Origin: an uncultured Pseudomonadota bacterium
Lineage (GTDB): Bacteria; Bdellovibrionota_B; Oligoflexia; Oligoflexales; CAIYRB01
NCBI GenBank assembly: GCA_903915625.1
Contig: CAIWTN010000110.1
Span: forward strand, 1-33,690
Reading direction: 5' to 3'
DNA length: 33,690 bases
Positions 958 to 30,608 of the stretch are shown here, in pieces. A program made the translations under genes and the position numbers. The notes beneath the pieces were generated by a model. The model searched no databases and had not been told where the DNA came from. It worked only from the letters and a program-made list of their open reading frames with translations. Each line of letters starts with the position of its first letter. Within the stretch, counting starts at the first letter, position 1.

Positions 958-975
958 ATTAACTTCGTAGTTAAT
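958..975 (-). other. Hairpin at the 3' end of the Hsp70 operon
   Basis: ATTAACT (958-964) and AGTTAAT (969-975) are perfect complements around a TCGT loop. The arm at 969-975 overlaps the stop codon of the last Hsp70 gene (971-973). There is no T-tract on either side, so this is not a standard intrinsic terminator. It may protect or end the mRNA. Confidence 0.35.
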
Positions 976-3781
976 TCAGTACCAAACCCACAGGTAAACT
1001 TTCTCCAAAGAGCTGCATCTTAGCCTCGGTGTCCACTGGGACGAATTCACGCACCAGGCGCATCTGTTCAGCGCTGGCACCAGTCTCGCCCAGTTTAGCT
1101 AAAAACTGCCCGCGTGCTGCATCGGATAAATCGTACTCGCGGTCTCCAATCATCCGCCCAGCCTGCGTCAAGAACAGCGCAAGTTTGCTGAACGCGGCAT
1201 CGCCGCGCTTGATCTTTTTCAGTTCATCAAACCAGCCCACGACTACTTCTGGTCTCACGATATTATGTGGTCCACCGTAAAGCGGTACGCGACTCGCAAT
1301 TCGAGCCAAGGCCCACATGCGTTGATTGACGAATTTTTGTCTGCCAGCTGCAAGCTGTTGCGTTAGATGTTGGCCGAGGCGGATTTTCTGCATCATTTCG
1401 ACCCGCTCTAGCGAGCCAGCCAGTAAATACAGCTCCGGCGACGCATCATCTTTGCGCAGTGCGGGGAATATGCGCTCAAAGAGCTGTTCCTGTTGCTCGC
1501 GTAGAAGGCCGCCAGCCACTCGGCGCCACATGATCCACCACTGCTCTTCCGCCTGCTTTTCTTTGGGAAAGCTCAGGCCCTGTTGAAAGCAGCGCCACAG
1601 CTCTTGCGTGCGCCATTCATCAAGTTCGCAGCCATATCCTGGGCGTAAGCTATACCCTGCAAGGTATAACCATTGAGTCTCATGATTTAACGAACGTCCG
1701 CGGCGCGTCATTCCCGCGGCCAAATGCGGCCAGAGCCCGCGCAGTAGAGACGTGTCCCAGTCCTCGCGAGGCGCACCGAGCATATCTTCCAGATCTTTGA
1801 CTAAATTTTTGGGCGCGCCTAATTGCTCGTCACGCTTCTTCTTGCCGTAAAGTACGTCCAGCTTGTCGATGGCAATAGCTACTTTACTTGCAGAAAAGCG
1901 ACTCTTTGCCAACTCCGCCGATGCTGCGGGCGCTGCAGTTGGAGAGCGAGCAGAAGTGCCCCGAACATTAAAGTCGAGCTGCCAACGCTTCACGTTAGCT
2001 TGGTCATCTTGATGAACTAAATAAAGACAGAGTAGTCCTGTCTCTGCCACTGAAGTTTCAAGCTGCACCGATATGAGTTTGTCATCTTTCTTGCCGGCAA
2101 GATCAATGCGCGTGTGGAGCGGGGGTAGGGGATGGAAGCTATCTCTGGTAGCAACATCGGCAACGACCACATCGGCCAGATGATCATCAGCTCTTGTCGT
2201 TGAGGTAAACAACTGGAATCGTACTGGGGAGTCAGCGCGCAGCTTCAGGTCTAAACTGTCAAGTTTGAGCGGAGCAACGCCATCGTATCCTTTGGGAACG
2301 ATGCAAATTAGATTTGGACCTGTACCGGCACTGCCATGATCTTTATCAGCAACTTCCACTTCGACATAAACAGAACGCGCATAACCGCCCTTGATCAGAG
2401 CCTCTGGCTGATGGCGCAAAGCTGCATAATGTGCGGCACCAAGGGCAACGGCTAGATCCATGTCAGCACTAGCTAGCACCACTGGCTCAGACCCATTTTG
2501 CCAATTAGTAATTTGTTCCACTAATGTGCGGCGTAGAATTGCTGGCCTTAGCGTGCCACCATTAAAAAGCACTGCGTCAACACGATGATTGGCAATAAAC
2601 TGCGCAATGTGGCGGGTGATAGCACTGTCTTGCGCATAGGGTAGCCCAAGTTGAGTCAGTCCGAGTCGCTGACGACGCGGCACGTCTGTAGCTGAAGCTA
2701 GCGGGAAAAATCCAGAGACCACAAGGTCTCTGATCTCTGTGCGGCGCAAACTCGCGGTGCGCGCAGTCGCCATCAAGCTGGAGCCCTCACCAGCGATGGA
2801 GACAAAGAGTTCTTCATCGGGACTGGTAGTCACGGAATCGTCGCTTAAGGCACTCTCTTTTAGTTGCCGAGTACCAAAGGCCAGTTGTGCCCATTCGCGC
2901 GAGGACAAGCGATTGTCATCACCAACAAGTTTATTCTCAAGCGCATAAGCAAGGCTCAAATCGATGTTGTCGCCGCCTAGTAGCAGATGTTCACTAACGG
3001 CAACTCGGGTAATGTCTGGTTGTCCCGACGGCTTGGGCTCGACCCGAAATAGGCTGAAATCGCTGGTGCCGCCGCCGATATCGATGATCAGGACGGTAAA
3101 TGGCTCCGCCTTTGGCAAGTCGTGGCGGCCGTCTAGCCAGTGATAAAAAGCAGCCTGCGGCTCTTCAAGTAAGCGCACTCTTTCGGCAGGGTATCCCGCC
3201 TGAACGGCTGCCGCGAGCGTCAACCTTTGTGCCGCTTCATCAAAGGACGCGGGTACCGTGATGACGATGTCTTGCTCTTCGAACCGTGCGCCTGCCTGGT
3301 CTTTTGCTACGAGTAGATTCCAAGACTCACGAAGGTGCTGCAGGTAGGCCGCAGAGACCTCAACTGGTGATCTGCGTTCATCGCCGACTAGATCACCCAC
3401 ATGCCAGGGCAAGATGCGCTCTTCCCGGTCAACGCCGTCATGACATAACCAAGATTTTGCCTGGTGAATCACGCGCCCCGGAACCTGACTGCTCTGCCAA
3501 CGCGCAAATTTGCCGACAACAAAATCTGGCAGAGATCCTTCGGCATGCTGAGGTAGAGCGAGCTGGCCACGCTTCCATTCAGACTTAGGCGGCAGGTAGT
3601 AGTAGGAAGGGAGCGTCGGCGCCCTTACTACGGAACCATCACTCTCCCACTGAGGGATTTCTAATACCTGTGCTGGACTGCCATTCGCGCTCAAATCAAC
3701 ATAGGCCAAGGCGCAGTTAGTGGTGCCTAGGTCGATGCCAATAGCGTAGCGTGCGCGTGATGCCGAATTAATGTTGTTCAT
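971..3781 (-). CDS. Hsp70-family protein with C-terminal DUF3731-type region
   Basis: 936 residues, far longer than DnaK (about 640). The N-terminal half is an Hsp70/actin-like ATPase: phosphate-1 loop IDLGTTN (16-22), TVPASFDEAAQR (175-186), LLEEPQAAFYHWL (204-216), phosphate-2 loop IDIGGGTSDFS (233-243) and VLFNGGTLRP (404-413). The region from about 650 to 920 is helical and Trp/Arg-rich (for example EEQWWIMWRRVAGGLLREQQ) and matches my memory of DUF3731, found at the end of this Hsp70 subfamily. There is no DnaK-type lid or EEVD-like tail. It starts inside the 3' end of the preceding Hsp70 gene (14-base overlap), implying translational coupling. It is probably a cytoplasmic ATP-dependent chaperone; the client is unknown. 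Confidence 0.88.
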   Translation of the reverse strand: MNNINSASRARYAIGIDLGTTNCALAYVDLSANGSPAQVLEIPQWESDGSVVRAPTLPSYYYLPPKSEWKRGQLALPQHAEGSLPDFVVGKFARWQSSQVPGRVIHQAKSWLCHDGVDREERILPWHVGDLVGDERRSPVEVSAAYLQHLRESWNLLVAKDQAGARFEEQDIVITVPASFDEAAQRLTLAAAVQAGYPAERVRLLEEPQAAFYHWLDGRHDLPKAEPFTVLIIDIGGGTSDFSLFRVEPKPSGQPDITRVAVSEHLLLGGDNIDLSLAYALENKLVGDDNRLSSREWAQLAFGTRQLKESALSDDSVTTSPDEELFVSIAGEGSSLMATARTASLRRTEIRDLVVSGFFPLASATDVPRRQRLGLTQLGLPYAQDSAITRHIAQFIANHRVDAVLFNGGTLRPAILRRTLVEQITNWQNGSEPVVLASADMDLAVALGAAHYAALRHQPEALIKGGYARSVYVEVEVADKDHGSAGTGPNLICIVPKGYDGVAPLKLDSLDLKLRADSPVRFQLFTSTTRADDHLADVVVADVATRDSFHPLPPLHTRIDLAGKKDDKLISVQLETSVAETGLLCLYLVHQDDQANVKRWQLDFNVRGTSARSPTAAPAASAELAKSRFSASKVAIAIDKLDVLYGKKKRDEQLGAPKNLVKDLEDMLGAPREDWDTSLLRGLWPHLAAGMTRRGRSLNHETQWLYLAGYSLRPGYGCELDEWRTQELWRCFQQGLSFPKEKQAEEQWWIMWRRVAGGLLREQQEQLFERIFPALRKDDASPELYLLAGSLERVEMMQKIRLGQHLTQQLAAGRQKFVNQRMWALARIASRVPLYGGPHNIVRPEVVVGWFDELKKIKRGDAAFSKLALFLTQAGRMIGDREYDLSDAARGQFLAKLGETGASAEQMRLVREFVPVDTEAKMQLFGESLPVGLVLN

Positions 3782-5663
3782 GAGTTCTTAAATTGAATTC
3801 CAGATTCCATTTGCGACCTGAGGTCGTGTCCTTCATATAGACTTGAAGCATGCCCATTTCGTTAACGACGGCATCTAAGCGTACGGGAATGACTTTGCCC
3901 TCATCCTCGCCATCAGATCTTAGGGTGAGGCTGAGTTGAGCGTTTTCATCTAAGCTATGCGCCGCGTCATCGACAACTGTGCCTGGTTTGTCGCCAGCGC
4001 GCACTGTAGAGGAGAAAAAGCGGAACTCTACAGGCTCACCAATGACGAGACCGAATTGCTGATCTTTAAGCTCGATCTCGGTGCCCTCGTCTGTTCCCTG
4101 AGGTACGAGACAAAGACCGCGGACTTTCGGTTCGATACCGGGTACTGCGGGTGCGACTTCTTCTAAGCCAACATAATAAGAACGCGCAGTACCACTCTGT
4201 ACTCTGATGCCGCGTCCGGTGCTGCGCAGCTTTCCGTAGTAGGTGGCGCCACGTGCCACGGCCAGGTCATAGTCAGCGCCCGTTAGTTCTTTAATACTGC
4301 TACCACTCCAAGTGGAAAGTAGCTCAACAATTCGTTGGCGTAAGGCCGGAGCTCTAAAAACACCGCCATTAAACAGCACTGCGGTCGGTAGTAGTGCCTC
4401 GTTTTGCAGGTTAGCACCGACTAACGTTTGTAGCTGCGGGTTGGACGCGACATTCTGTGCCGAGCGACGGAGAAAGCGAGCCAAGTGTCTGCTGATTGCC
4501 GCATCACTTTCATAGTGTAGGCCAAATTCTTGAATACCGGCTGACCGCCTGGTCTTTGGCATCTCATCAAGTCGTGTGCGCGGGAGAAAGCCCTCGACTA
4601 TAGTCGACAAGACCTGTGCGCGCGTAAGCTCCGTAGTTACTGTTCCGGCAAATAGACTAGAGCCACGACTGGCAACTGCAATGGGAAGTGACGCGAGATC
4701 ATCAGTGATGAGCAGACGTTCTTTAGCTGATCGAGCAGCGGCAACTAGAGAGAGAAACTGCCAATGATCGACGCTACGTCCTTGTGCTTCGAGCTGCTGC
4801 TTGAGTCCATAAGCAAGCGCCAAGTCCATGTTGTCGCCACCGAGCAGCAAATGCTCGCCGACGCTAATACGTTCAAGATGCAGCTGGCCTTGGTCCTCGC
4901 CGACTGCAATCAAACTAAAGTCGCATGTGCCGCCGCCGACATCACAGACCAGGATGACTTCGCCAGGTTGCACTTGCTTGCGCCAGTCGCGATCATTTGC
5001 GTCTAGCCAGGCGTAAAATGCGGCCAATGGTTCTTCCAGAAGTACCGGGTCACCAAGGCCAGCATCGCGCGCTGCAGCATGGGTCAGTGCGCGTGCCACT
5101 TCGTCAAACGAAGCCGGTACGGTTAGTACTACCGTGCAATCAGCGGCGCTGACGTTTTCGCCGTTGTTTTTGCGGTCATTAACGAAGGCTGCGCCTAAGT
5201 GCTCTAGATAACGCTTTGATGCTTGGACAGGAGAACACTTGCCCTCAGTAATCTCGGATCGCCACGGCAGCAATGCGGCTTGCCTGTCAGCTTGGCTGGC
5301 GCAGAGCCACGATTTAGCGGATGACACAACCCGATCGGGCACTTCGGCACCCCGGTCACGAGCCCACTTACCAACTACATTAGCTTTATAAGCAGAGTCA
5401 CTTTGCCCCTCACTCGTCCAAGGCAACTGCGCTGCCGCGCTCGCGAGCTCGCCACTATGCGGAATGTAGAGGAACGACGGCAGGGTGGTTTGACTGCCAA
5501 CTTGTCCCGGTCCAAACACCTGCGGAATCTCTAGCACCTCGACCCTCGAATCGGCCCTAGATTCAGTCGATTCTAGGGTGGATTCCAGTTTGCTGTAGGT
5601 CAGCGCTGAGTTGGTTGTGCCTAAATCGATGCCGACTACATATGGGATCTGCTTGTCAGTCAC
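3768..5663 (-). CDS. Hsp70-family protein (short partner of the pair)
   Basis: 631 residues. ATPase motifs: IDLGTTN (12-18), TVPASFDEVAR (181-191), LLEEPLAAFYAWL (208-220), phosphate-2 loop CDVGGGTCDFS (240-250) and an AVLFNGGVFRAP motif near residue 425. Unlike its neighbour it ends soon after a beta-rich region (LCLVPQGTDEGTEIEL and onwards) comparable to part of the Hsp70 substrate-binding domain and lacks the long helical tail. The start is GTG at 5663 with GGAG about nine bases upstream. It lies 15 bases after the DUF2760 gene and overlaps the next Hsp70 gene by 14 bases, so the three are one operon. An Ser/Glu-rich insert (about residues 26-41) sits just after the first motif. Probable chaperone; no J-protein or GrpE is encoded nearby. 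Confidence 0.88.
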   Translation of the reverse strand: MTDKQIPYVVGIDLGTTNSALTYSKLESTLESTESRADSRVEVLEIPQVFGPGQVGSQTTLPSFLYIPHSGELASAAAQLPWTSEGQSDSAYKANVVGKWARDRGAEVPDRVVSSAKSWLCASQADRQAALLPWRSEITEGKCSPVQASKRYLEHLGAAFVNDRKNNGENVSAADCTVVLTVPASFDEVARALTHAAARDAGLGDPVLLEEPLAAFYAWLDANDRDWRKQVQPGEVILVCDVGGGTCDFSLIAVGEDQGQLHLERISVGEHLLLGGDNMDLALAYGLKQQLEAQGRSVDHWQFLSLVAAARSAKERLLITDDLASLPIAVASRGSSLFAGTVTTELTRAQVLSTIVEGFLPRTRLDEMPKTRRSAGIQEFGLHYESDAAISRHLARFLRRSAQNVASNPQLQTLVGANLQNEALLPTAVLFNGGVFRAPALRQRIVELLSTWSGSSIKELTGADYDLAVARGATYYGKLRSTGRGIRVQSGTARSYYVGLEEVAPAVPGIEPKVRGLCLVPQGTDEGTEIELKDQQFGLVIGEPVEFRFFSSTVRAGDKPGTVVDDAAHSLDENAQLSLTLRSDGEDEGKVIPVRLDAVVNEMGMLQVYMKDTTSGRKWNLEFNLRTHEQH

Positions 5664-28687: not shown

Positions 28688-29398
28688 ATGAAGACGCGGA
28701 GCATTGCGTTATTTGAGGTCTGCGCAGAGGTGCACTTGCTTAACGATAAAGAGAGCAATGTGATCAAAAAATCAACGCAGAGCTTCACTGCGGATCTTGA
28801 TGCCATTGAGACTTTGGTCAAATCTCATAGAGTAAAAATAGAAGAGATAGAGCGAGTTCTCGACGGACGTGGATTTGCATCTTTAGCTCTGATTCTGAGT
28901 TTGCCTTTTGTCCAGCCTATCCCATTGCCTGGTCTTTCGATGATTTTTGGCCTGGCTTTGATGGCCCTCGGACTGCGCTTGGTATTTGGTCGGGCCGGAG
29001 GTCTTCCTGGGTGGGTGAGGAAGCGAGAGATTGATGGCGTAACTCTTCAGAAGATGATCCACGCTGCTCGCAAAATCTTTGCTTATGTTGAAAGGTTTTT
29101 TAGGCCTAGGCTGTCTGTGTTACTGCGACCGCCTTTAGAGTCTTTCGTGGGTCTAGGTATCATGCTTAGTGGATTTGCCATGACATTGCCGCTGCCTCCG
29201 GTGGTTTTGTTTTCCAACTCGCTACCAGCATGGGCGGTCATATGTCTTTGCTTGGGCTACCTTGAGCGGGACGGCCTCGTGGTTGTCTTAGGTCACGTAG
29301 TGGCGCTAGCAACATGGGTTTATTATGCTTTCTGGTGGGAAGCGGTAAAGTTAGCTTGGTCTGGTATGGGACCTTACCTACCGCCTTATATGAAGTGA
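28688..29398 (+). CDS. ExoD-family membrane protein
   Basis: 236 residues from the ATG at 28688. A soluble N-terminal helical part (about 25-62, ADLDAIETLVKSHRVKIEEI then ERVLDGRGFASLALIL) leads into the ExoD pattern: LSLPFVQPIPLPGLSMIFGL, LALMALGLRLVFGR with G-LPGWVRKREI, and paired helices near 145-225 (FVGLGIMLSGFAMTLPLPPV, AVICLCLGYLERDGLVVVLG). ExoD was named for exopolysaccharide synthesis in Rhizobium; its biochemical role is not established. The start is uncertain: the ATG lacks a ribosome binding site and a GTG at 28760 (GAGAG upstream) would give 212 residues, nearer the family length. It is 13 bases before the cryptochrome-like gene, so co-transcribed. Confidence 0.75.
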   Translation: MKTRSIALFEVCAEVHLLNDKESNVIKKSTQSFTADLDAIETLVKSHRVKIEEIERVLDGRGFASLALILSLPFVQPIPLPGLSMIFGLALMALGLRLVFGRAGGLPGWVRKREIDGVTLQKMIHAARKIFAYVERFFRPRLSVLLRPPLESFVGLGIMLSGFAMTLPLPPVVLFSNSLPAWAVICLCLGYLERDGLVVVLGHVVALATWVYYAFWWEAVKLAWSGMGPYLPPYMK

Positions 29399-29411
29399 TT
29401 GAGGCAGCCTT

Positions 29412-30608
29412 ATGGATCTCACGCGCGAAGCTGGATTAAAGCGACTTAGCGAATTTGTTGCCGGCCCGCTGGCTAATTATGCATCTTGTCGTAACCTTGA
29501 TCTCGGAAATGATCGACATACCGAAGTCGTATCAAAGTTGTCTCCTTACATTCGAATGCGCTTAGTCCTCGAATCCGAGGTGATTGCAGCATCGCTTACG
29601 CGATTTCCGGCGCAGACTATATCCAAGTGGATTGATGAGGTCATTTGGAGAACTTATTGGAAGGGGTGGCTAGAGCAGTCACCACAAGTGTGGACGTCCT
29701 ATGTCACAGCGATTGCTCAACTTGAGCAGGAGGGGTGGCGAGAGCGAGTGAATTATACCGAGGCTATTTCTGGTAAATCGGGTATCGCTTGCATTGATCA
29801 TTGGGTTCGGGAACTTAAGGACACGGGTTACTTGCATAACCACGCTCGGATGTGGTTTGCCAGTATTTGGATCTTTACTCTGCAACTACCCTGGGAGTTG
29901 GGAGCAGATTTTTTTCTGCGCCATCTACTCGACGGTGATGCCGCAGCTAACACCTTGTCATGGCGATGGGTAGCAGGACTTCATACGCCAGGAAAGCGGT
30001 ATGTTGCTTCAGCTTCTAATATTGAACGTTGGACTGAGGGGCGGGTGCGAGTCACGGAGACATTGGCTACGGAAGCCGAGGCATTCAAGCGAGCGCCGCA
30101 GGATGCAGACTATAAGCCTACCGCTGAAAGTATCTTAGAACTTAATTCAGCGTTTAACAGTGATCCGCGACGGACTCTTCTGATTCACCCAGAGGATCTT
30201 GCTATTGAATATTCGTCACTTGCCACTGAAGACTTCGATGCCATTGTGGTACTTGATTGCTCTAAAACAGTGCTAGCGACATTTTTTTCAGATGCAATTA
30301 TGCATGCCCATCGGCAAGCATTAGAGGATTGCATTCATCGCACAGAGACGCACTTTGGTACGCAGGTTTTTAGATTGTCACCGGATGAAGTGAATCCATT
30401 CGCGCAGGACCAAGGATCACATTCCTGGGTCTGCATCAAGCCAGTGGTGGGCATATGGCAAGACGCTTGGCGGCCATACTTTGCGAAACAGTCAATCGAG
30501 TTTGTCCAGCGTGAATGGGACCAAATCCTGTATCCTTTTGCACGAAAGGGATTTTTTCAGTTTAAAAAGAGCGCTTGGGATACAGATCTGGTCCTGCAAA
30601 AGACTTAG
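29412..30608 (+). CDS. Photolyase/cryptochrome-like FAD-domain protein lacking the N-terminal domain
   Basis: 398 residues, ATG at 29412 with GAGG eight bases upstream. Residues 4-215 match the FAD-binding half of photolyases: TREAGLKRLSEF (4-15), YASCRNLDLGNDRH (23-36), SKLSPYIRMRLV (41-52), VIWRTYWKGWL (77-87), DTGYLHNHARMWFASIW (137-153), LLDGDAAANTLSWRWVAGL (172-190). The usual N-terminal antenna (alpha/beta) domain is missing, as the protein starts at the FAD domain. Residues about 230-398 form an extra C-terminal domain with beta-alpha features (RRTLLIHPEDLAIEY, DFDAIVVLDCSK) ending FARKGFFQFKKSAWDTDLV. It may repair DNA or sense blue light; related proteins seem to exist in other proteobacteria. 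Its stop overlaps that of the next, convergent gene. Confidence 0.8.
   Translation: MDLTREAGLKRLSEFVAGPLANYASCRNLDLGNDRHTEVVSKLSPYIRMRLVLESEVIAASLTRFPAQTISKWIDEVIWRTYWKGWLEQSPQVWTSYVTAIAQLEQEGWRERVNYTEAISGKSGIACIDHWVRELKDTGYLHNHARMWFASIWIFTLQLPWELGADFFLRHLLDGDAAANTLSWRWVAGLHTPGKRYVASASNIERWTEGRVRVTETLATEAEAFKRAPQDADYKPTAESILELNSAFNSDPRRTLLIHPEDLAIEYSSLATEDFDAIVVLDCSKTVLATFFSDAIMHAHRQALEDCIHRTETHFGTQVFRLSPDEVNPFAQDQGSHSWVCIKPVVGIWQDAWRPYFAKQSIEFVQREWDQILYPFARKGFFQFKKSAWDTDLVLQKT

Follow-up and report, generated by a model that had tools for sequence, protein, structure and literature searches.

An FAD-first gene of an uncultured bacterium very probably encodes a photolyase of the NewPHL class with inverted domain order

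Which kind of protein is encoded by a photolyase-like gene whose product begins at the FAD domain and carries an alpha/beta domain behind it? The question is raised by an open reading frame in the window, by which we mean the whole stretch of 33,690 nucleotides that was analyzed. The preliminary description had called its product cryptochrome-like and had considered either a circular permutation of the photolyase fold or a distinct light- or redox-sensing subfamily. The reading frame opens with an ATG and encodes 398 amino acids, and its immediate surroundings are as follows.

29412..30608, + strand: predicted NewPHL-type photolyase gene, FAD domain first and alpha/beta (Z) domain second (ORF, Pfam, family alignments, tree)
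29400..29402, + strand: in-frame TGA closing the reading frame upstream, 9 bases before the ATG
28688..29398, + strand: ExoD-family gene, 13 bases upstream of the photolyase gene (PF06055, E=2.3e-44)

Only the residues G-S-L would fit between the upstream stop and the ATG, and a short lead before the ATG is also present in a relative of 78% identity (L002). The bases TGAGG at 29400-29404 are a plausible candidate for the ribosome-binding site. Since an in-frame stop and the ExoD-family gene precede the ATG, we could rule out that an antenna domain had been overlooked upstream, a concern which the preliminary description itself had raised.

The protein does start directly at the photolyase FAD domain, as had been proposed. 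FAD_binding_7 (PF03441; residues 73-198, E=1.4e-21) was the sole Pfam family found in the 398-aa protein, and phmmer comparison with PDB chains placed the start of the catalytic domain near residue 6 (matching positions 180-364 of Thermus photolyase, E=5e-18), with residues 6-197 aligning to the FAD domains of the Thermus, A. nidulans and E. coli photolyases. Both the Pfam match and the PDB matches (1iqr, 1tez, 1owl and 1dnp) point to CPD photolyases.

29412..30047, + strand: catalytic FAD domain, residues 1-212, all-helical (PF03441, PDB matches, model helices)
29637..29648, + strand: E76 and W79, counterparts of the lesion-contact residues E283 and W286 of A. nidulans photolyase (1tez alignment, invariant in 70/70)
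29736..29738, + strand: W109, at the place of the third Trp of canonical photolyases, variable across the family (alignment)
29838..29852, + strand: N143-H-A-R-M147, counterparts of N349 and M353, FAD and lesion contact (alignment)
29892..29894, + strand: W161, second Trp of the electron-transfer chain (alignment, invariant in 70/70)
29931..29969, + strand: DGDAAANTLSWRW motif with D174, D176 and N180 (FAD), W184 (first electron-transfer Trp) and W186 (lesion stacking) (alignment)

Residues were mapped onto A. nidulans photolyase through the 1tez alignment, except for the loop at about 40-44, which was placed by profile alignment. In the A. nidulans enzyme the CPD is contacted by E283, W286, N349, M353 and W392. 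They correspond to E76, W79, N143, M147 and W186, each of which is invariant in all 70 rows of the family alignment, as are R80, R146, W161, D174, D176, N180 and W184. Judged by the list of A. nidulans FAD-contact residues in PMC9426592, nearly all cofactor contacts are kept (Y23, S41, L43, S44, W73, R80, N143, D174, D176, A179 and N180), the changed positions being T240, which is V40 here, and position 346, which is Y140. The preliminary description had read the FAD motif correctly as AANTLSWRW. This motif is the norm of the NewPHL-type family and no oddity of one protein, with N180, L182, W184, R185 and W186 present in 70/70 sequences and T181 in 69. Among the electron-transfer tryptophans, W184 and W161 are invariant and the third position, occupied by W109 in the 398-aa protein, is variable, which agrees with the Trp dyad described for FAD photoreduction in the D. 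shibae NewPHL (PMC8948257). No conserved cysteine column that could represent Fe-S cysteines was found in the 70-row alignment.

Because the CPD-contact residues are all kept, and the FAD contacts nearly all, we read the protein as a photolyase rather than a sensor; it is probably an active, ordinary NewPHL enzyme, to judge from its residues and its characterized relatives. A cryptochrome-like sensor, an FAD-binding protein that no longer repairs DNA but reports light or redox state, perhaps via an ExoD-like partner, would fit the divergence of the FAD motif from class I and the conservation of the ExoD neighbor in the genus. Nevertheless, the lesion-contact residues are invariant in 70/70 sequences, and although three further photolyase-family genes of the host would make a loss of repair tolerable, the site shows no decay. 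Moreover, ExoD is no neighbor in the other loci examined, and the characterized relatives repair CPDs, being photolyases for single-stranded DNA (PMC9426592, PMC13274461). We therefore consider a sensor highly unlikely, and the terms "cryptochrome-like" and "light- or redox-sensing" are not supported. As an elaboration of the photolyase reading, the lineage might have re-acquired a third electron-transfer Trp (W109, also found in L002) on top of the dyad, in an enzyme that works with the ExoD-like protein, a combination that we regard as very unlikely.

The same gene was found in six others among 56 related genomes. Five of these copies are intact and share the domain order, with identities of 78, 48 and 50% within the genus and 39% in each of two other families; the sixth (L007, 1146-2352, G022) is spread over more than one frame, through either an assembly frameshift or gene decay. 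A pattern scan of named genomes yielded at least 595 candidate stretches, at least 571 of them encoding a relative, and 80 were kept. These belong mostly to Alphaproteobacteria, with further members in Thioalkalivibrio, Nevskia, Burkholderiaceae, Microbacteriaceae and an Eremiobacterota MAG. Full-length relatives were also present on plasmids of Peteryoungia, Ruegeria, Novosphingobium, Asticcacaulis and Niveispirillum, mostly annotated as "FAD-binding domain-containing protein"; the alphaproteobacterial plasmid relatives are 38-42% identical to the 398-aa protein. No relatives were found in the viral contigs searched. Conservation in the 70-row alignment spans the full length of the protein, and this, together with the many relatives, indicates that the FAD-first layout is widespread and no local accident. 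A truncated pseudogene, or a canonical photolyase that lost its antenna domain by frameshift, would account for the missing N-terminal domain and for nothing further. It is contradicted by the in-frame stop just upstream, which is itself preceded by another gene, and is refuted by the family-wide conservation, with full-length relatives that begin and end alike at identities as low as 38%; we regard it as vanishingly improbable.

In a tree of FAD domains, the 398-aa protein grouped with 26 NewPHL-type rows (support 100/99). A branch with 100/100 support set all FAD-first proteins apart from the canonical photolyases; it is long, so that the rooting and the order among the FAD-first forms are uncertain. 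The 398-aa protein shares its clades with a Methylobacterium MAG and with the Dinoroseobacter relatives Ruegeria, Tateyamaria and Marivita; the characterized A8LJA9 and M7YZC8 lie outside this sampling. The FAD-first forms of Deinococcus were sister lineages in this tree.

These results can be set against the known systems. NewPHL photolyases were described in 2020 by Emmerich et al. (Nucleic Acids Res 48:12845, as cited in PMC13274461 and PMC9426592). They are short photolyase-like proteins with inverted domain topology that repair CPDs in single-stranded DNA, and they are known from D. shibae, M. mesophilicum, E. litoralis and R. centenum (PMC13274461; reference accessions A8LJA9, M7YZC8, Q2N8F4 and B6IPR5). 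Phr7 of Prochlorococcus, with an N-terminal FAD domain and a C-terminal Z-domain, "an atypical, short photolyase domain", is of the same kind and lacks Fe-S cysteines (PMC9426592). The domain order, the missing Fe-S cysteines and the taxonomic company of the 398-aa protein all match the published class, and we assign it to the NewPHL photolyases with high confidence, on the grounds of its architecture, its residues and close relatives belonging to the families and genera of known members, the likeness to characterized members being one of description. Like the NewPHLs of Dinoroseobacter shibae and Methylobacterium mesophilicum and like Phr7, it has the FAD domain first and the Z-domain second, keeps the CPD-site residues and has no Fe-S cysteines; unlike them, it comes from a host of a small phylum, has a W109 that could supply a third Trp and is encoded next to an ExoD-like gene.

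Other classes do not fit the 398-aa protein. Phr4/Phr5 and Phr6 of marine Synechococcus/Cyanobium, SPL and the FAD-first proteins of Deinococcus (L036, L138-L140) likewise have no antenna domain before the FAD domain. However, these forms, which are sometimes split into two genes, have a more recognizable photolyase domain and in many cases Fe-S cysteines, whereas the 398-aa protein has a more diverged Z-domain, no conserved cysteines and no PF00875 match. The class I CPD photolyases of E. coli, A. nidulans and T. thermophilus share its FAD-binding fold and lesion-contact residues, but have an N-terminal antenna domain and an FAD domain that is longer at its C-terminal end; the lack of PF00875 before the FAD domain and the 100/100 split in the tree set it apart from this class. 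Cryptochromes (plant CRY, DASH) are homologous in the FAD domain but reversed in domain order, and the scores of 64.9 bits for TIGR02765 (DASH, cut-off 317) and 44.4 for TIGR02766 (cut-off 604) were far too low.

What, then, is the domain at the C-terminal end? Behind the FAD domain come about 185 residues, and the model confidently folds about 145 of them into an alpha/beta domain.

30048..30167, + strand: linker, residues 213-252, of lower model confidence (pLDDT 70-76 in blocks 221-250)
30168..30605, + strand: C-terminal alpha/beta (Z) domain, residues 253-398, five strands alternating with helices (models, fold search, profile links)

G347, D370, G380 and F382 of this domain are invariant in the 70-row alignment, and a family motif, RxWDxxxxPxAxKGFFxFK, lies close to its end. 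The stretch matched no Pfam family, and PF00875 was absent from the 398-aa protein. A profile of the family's Z-domains gave nothing convincing against Pfam and PDB sequences: one of 56 members touched PF00875 (E=0.11), and five touched BLH_phosphatase (best 9e-5), to which we gave no weight. AlphaFold2 modeled the whole protein with a pLDDT of 90.4 and a pTM of 0.90, and residues 225-398 alone with 84.0 and 0.77. The core strand-helix order of the latter model is b-a-b-a-a-b-a-b-a-b-a-a, which is that of the photolyase alpha/beta domain. The fold search of residues 225-398 that had been suggested was carried out with Foldseek against 350,542 PDB chains. Photolyases and cryptochromes accounted for 12 of the top 50 matches and had the highest query TM-scores (best of them 0.45-0.50), but no match reached E<0.001; universal stress proteins accounted for 6 of the 50, and the top single match was a universal stress protein domain.

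Direct comparison of the Z profile with 20 canonical antenna domains was not significant, and a shuffle test of the direct match gave a score of 18.3, with shuffles reaching 20.6. A link in two steps emerged through the Deinococcus-type FAD-first proteins. In that of Deinococcus sp. AJ005 (L036), PF00875 (300-395, E=7e-4, a match that falls short of Pfam's own threshold) lies behind FAD_binding_7 (102-218). A bridge profile of seven sequences, built from second domains of this kind, including those of the split two-gene forms (L124, L140), together with two Persicobacter proteins, aligned end to end both with canonical antenna domains (E=1.7e-12) and with the Z profile (E=2.7e-5), both being single-comparison E-values. 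After gap filtering, the respective scores were 59.6, against a best of 19.8 in 300 column shuffles, and 32.4 over 130 columns, against a best of 18.1 in 300; overall, C-terminal domains of FAD-first proteins scored 59.6 to 76.0 against canonical antenna domains. As fold controls, universal stress proteins scored 26.8 against Z, over 61 columns only; ETF scored about 15 or less. Part of the Z signal thus reflects a shared superfamily fold. A scan of the class to which an actinobacterial relative belongs, covering 297 genomes, turned up no Deinococcus-type FAD-first proteins, at a cut-off that was probably too strict.

One could suppose instead that an unrelated Rossmann-like or universal-stress-type domain was recruited to a truncated photolyase, which would be compatible with NewPHL membership and with the failed direct comparison, the top fold match and the score of 26.8. 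Yet canonical antenna domains score about the same against universal stress proteins (25.6), the end-to-end link over 130 columns connects Z to domains that do match PF00875 and canonical antenna domains, and the sister lineages carry their domain at the same place after the FAD domain. We consider recruitment unlikely, with a small but real chance of being right. Z is most likely a diverged photolyase alpha/beta domain at the opposite end of the protein, as suggested by profiles and models; the remaining chance is that Z and the antenna domain share the superfamily fold only. The reversed order that had been proposed is thus supported by the strand-helix order, the 12 photolyase and cryptochrome fold matches and the two-step profile link. 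Of the circular permutation, the correspondence to the N-terminal alpha/beta domain stands, and the rearrangement is better stated as a whole-domain inversion.

ExoD also lies directly upstream of the photolyase gene in the other three genomes of the genus in which that gene occurs (L120, L121 and L122), and it does not adjoin the NewPHL gene in the other loci read. In alphaproteobacteria, NewPHL genes lie beside or near AarF/UbiB kinase genes (L031, L032, L034) and beside DUF3429 genes (L033, L034). In G011 (L123, 2410-7998), the NewPHL gene overlaps the start of a HAHADH-motif gene. An ATP-dependent DNA ligase gene and one for an Lhr-type helicase come next, so that the arrangement is likely a repair operon. 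Two of the three further photolyase-family genes of the host were scored, both below the DASH cut-off. Contig C155 of the host genome encodes a 504-aa photolyase-family protein (L119, 384-1895) with a very long branch and HFLDFEPGIHYSQVQMQSG replacing the usual FAD motif. Elsewhere in the window, two adjacent genes with overlapping ends (971-5663, - strand; 936 and 631 aa) encode products that start with an Hsp70/DnaK-like motif (IGIDLGTTN). A defence-system library gave no match. The host assembly contains no 16S gene, and comparisons of rRNA and plasmids gave no informative match.

Split forms were also seen. In G013, of the same order, a 275-aa FAD domain and a 142-aa alpha/beta protein are encoded by adjoining genes (L124, 1032-2284), like Synechococcus Phr4/Phr5. 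A plasmid of Deinococcus sp. QL22 carries the same two-gene split (L140, 1396-2687), the second gene being annotated "hypothetical protein" and aligning with photolyase alpha/beta domains.

Taken with its characterized relatives, the residues of the 398-aa protein suggest that it would bind FAD, which would be reduced through the short Trp chain of W184 and W161, and that blue or UV-A light would drive electron transfer to cyclobutane pyrimidine dimers, with a preference for those in single-stranded DNA. The C-terminal domain would be a relocated and diverged version of the antenna domain that canonical enzymes carry at the N-terminus, and it would pack on the FAD domain and close the cofactor pocket. 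In the 2020 work of Emmerich and colleagues, the corresponding domain reportedly seals that pocket.

Domain inversion and the NewPHL class are already published, and the protein is a further member, not a new light sensor. NewPHL and SPL proteins have been proposed to stand near the origin of the photolyase/cryptochrome superfamily. This idea can be compared with the series described here, which adds members from a small, little-sampled phylum and runs from split FAD and photolyase-domain genes through fused FAD-first proteins with a recognizable photolyase domain to FAD-first proteins whose Z-domain is diverged.
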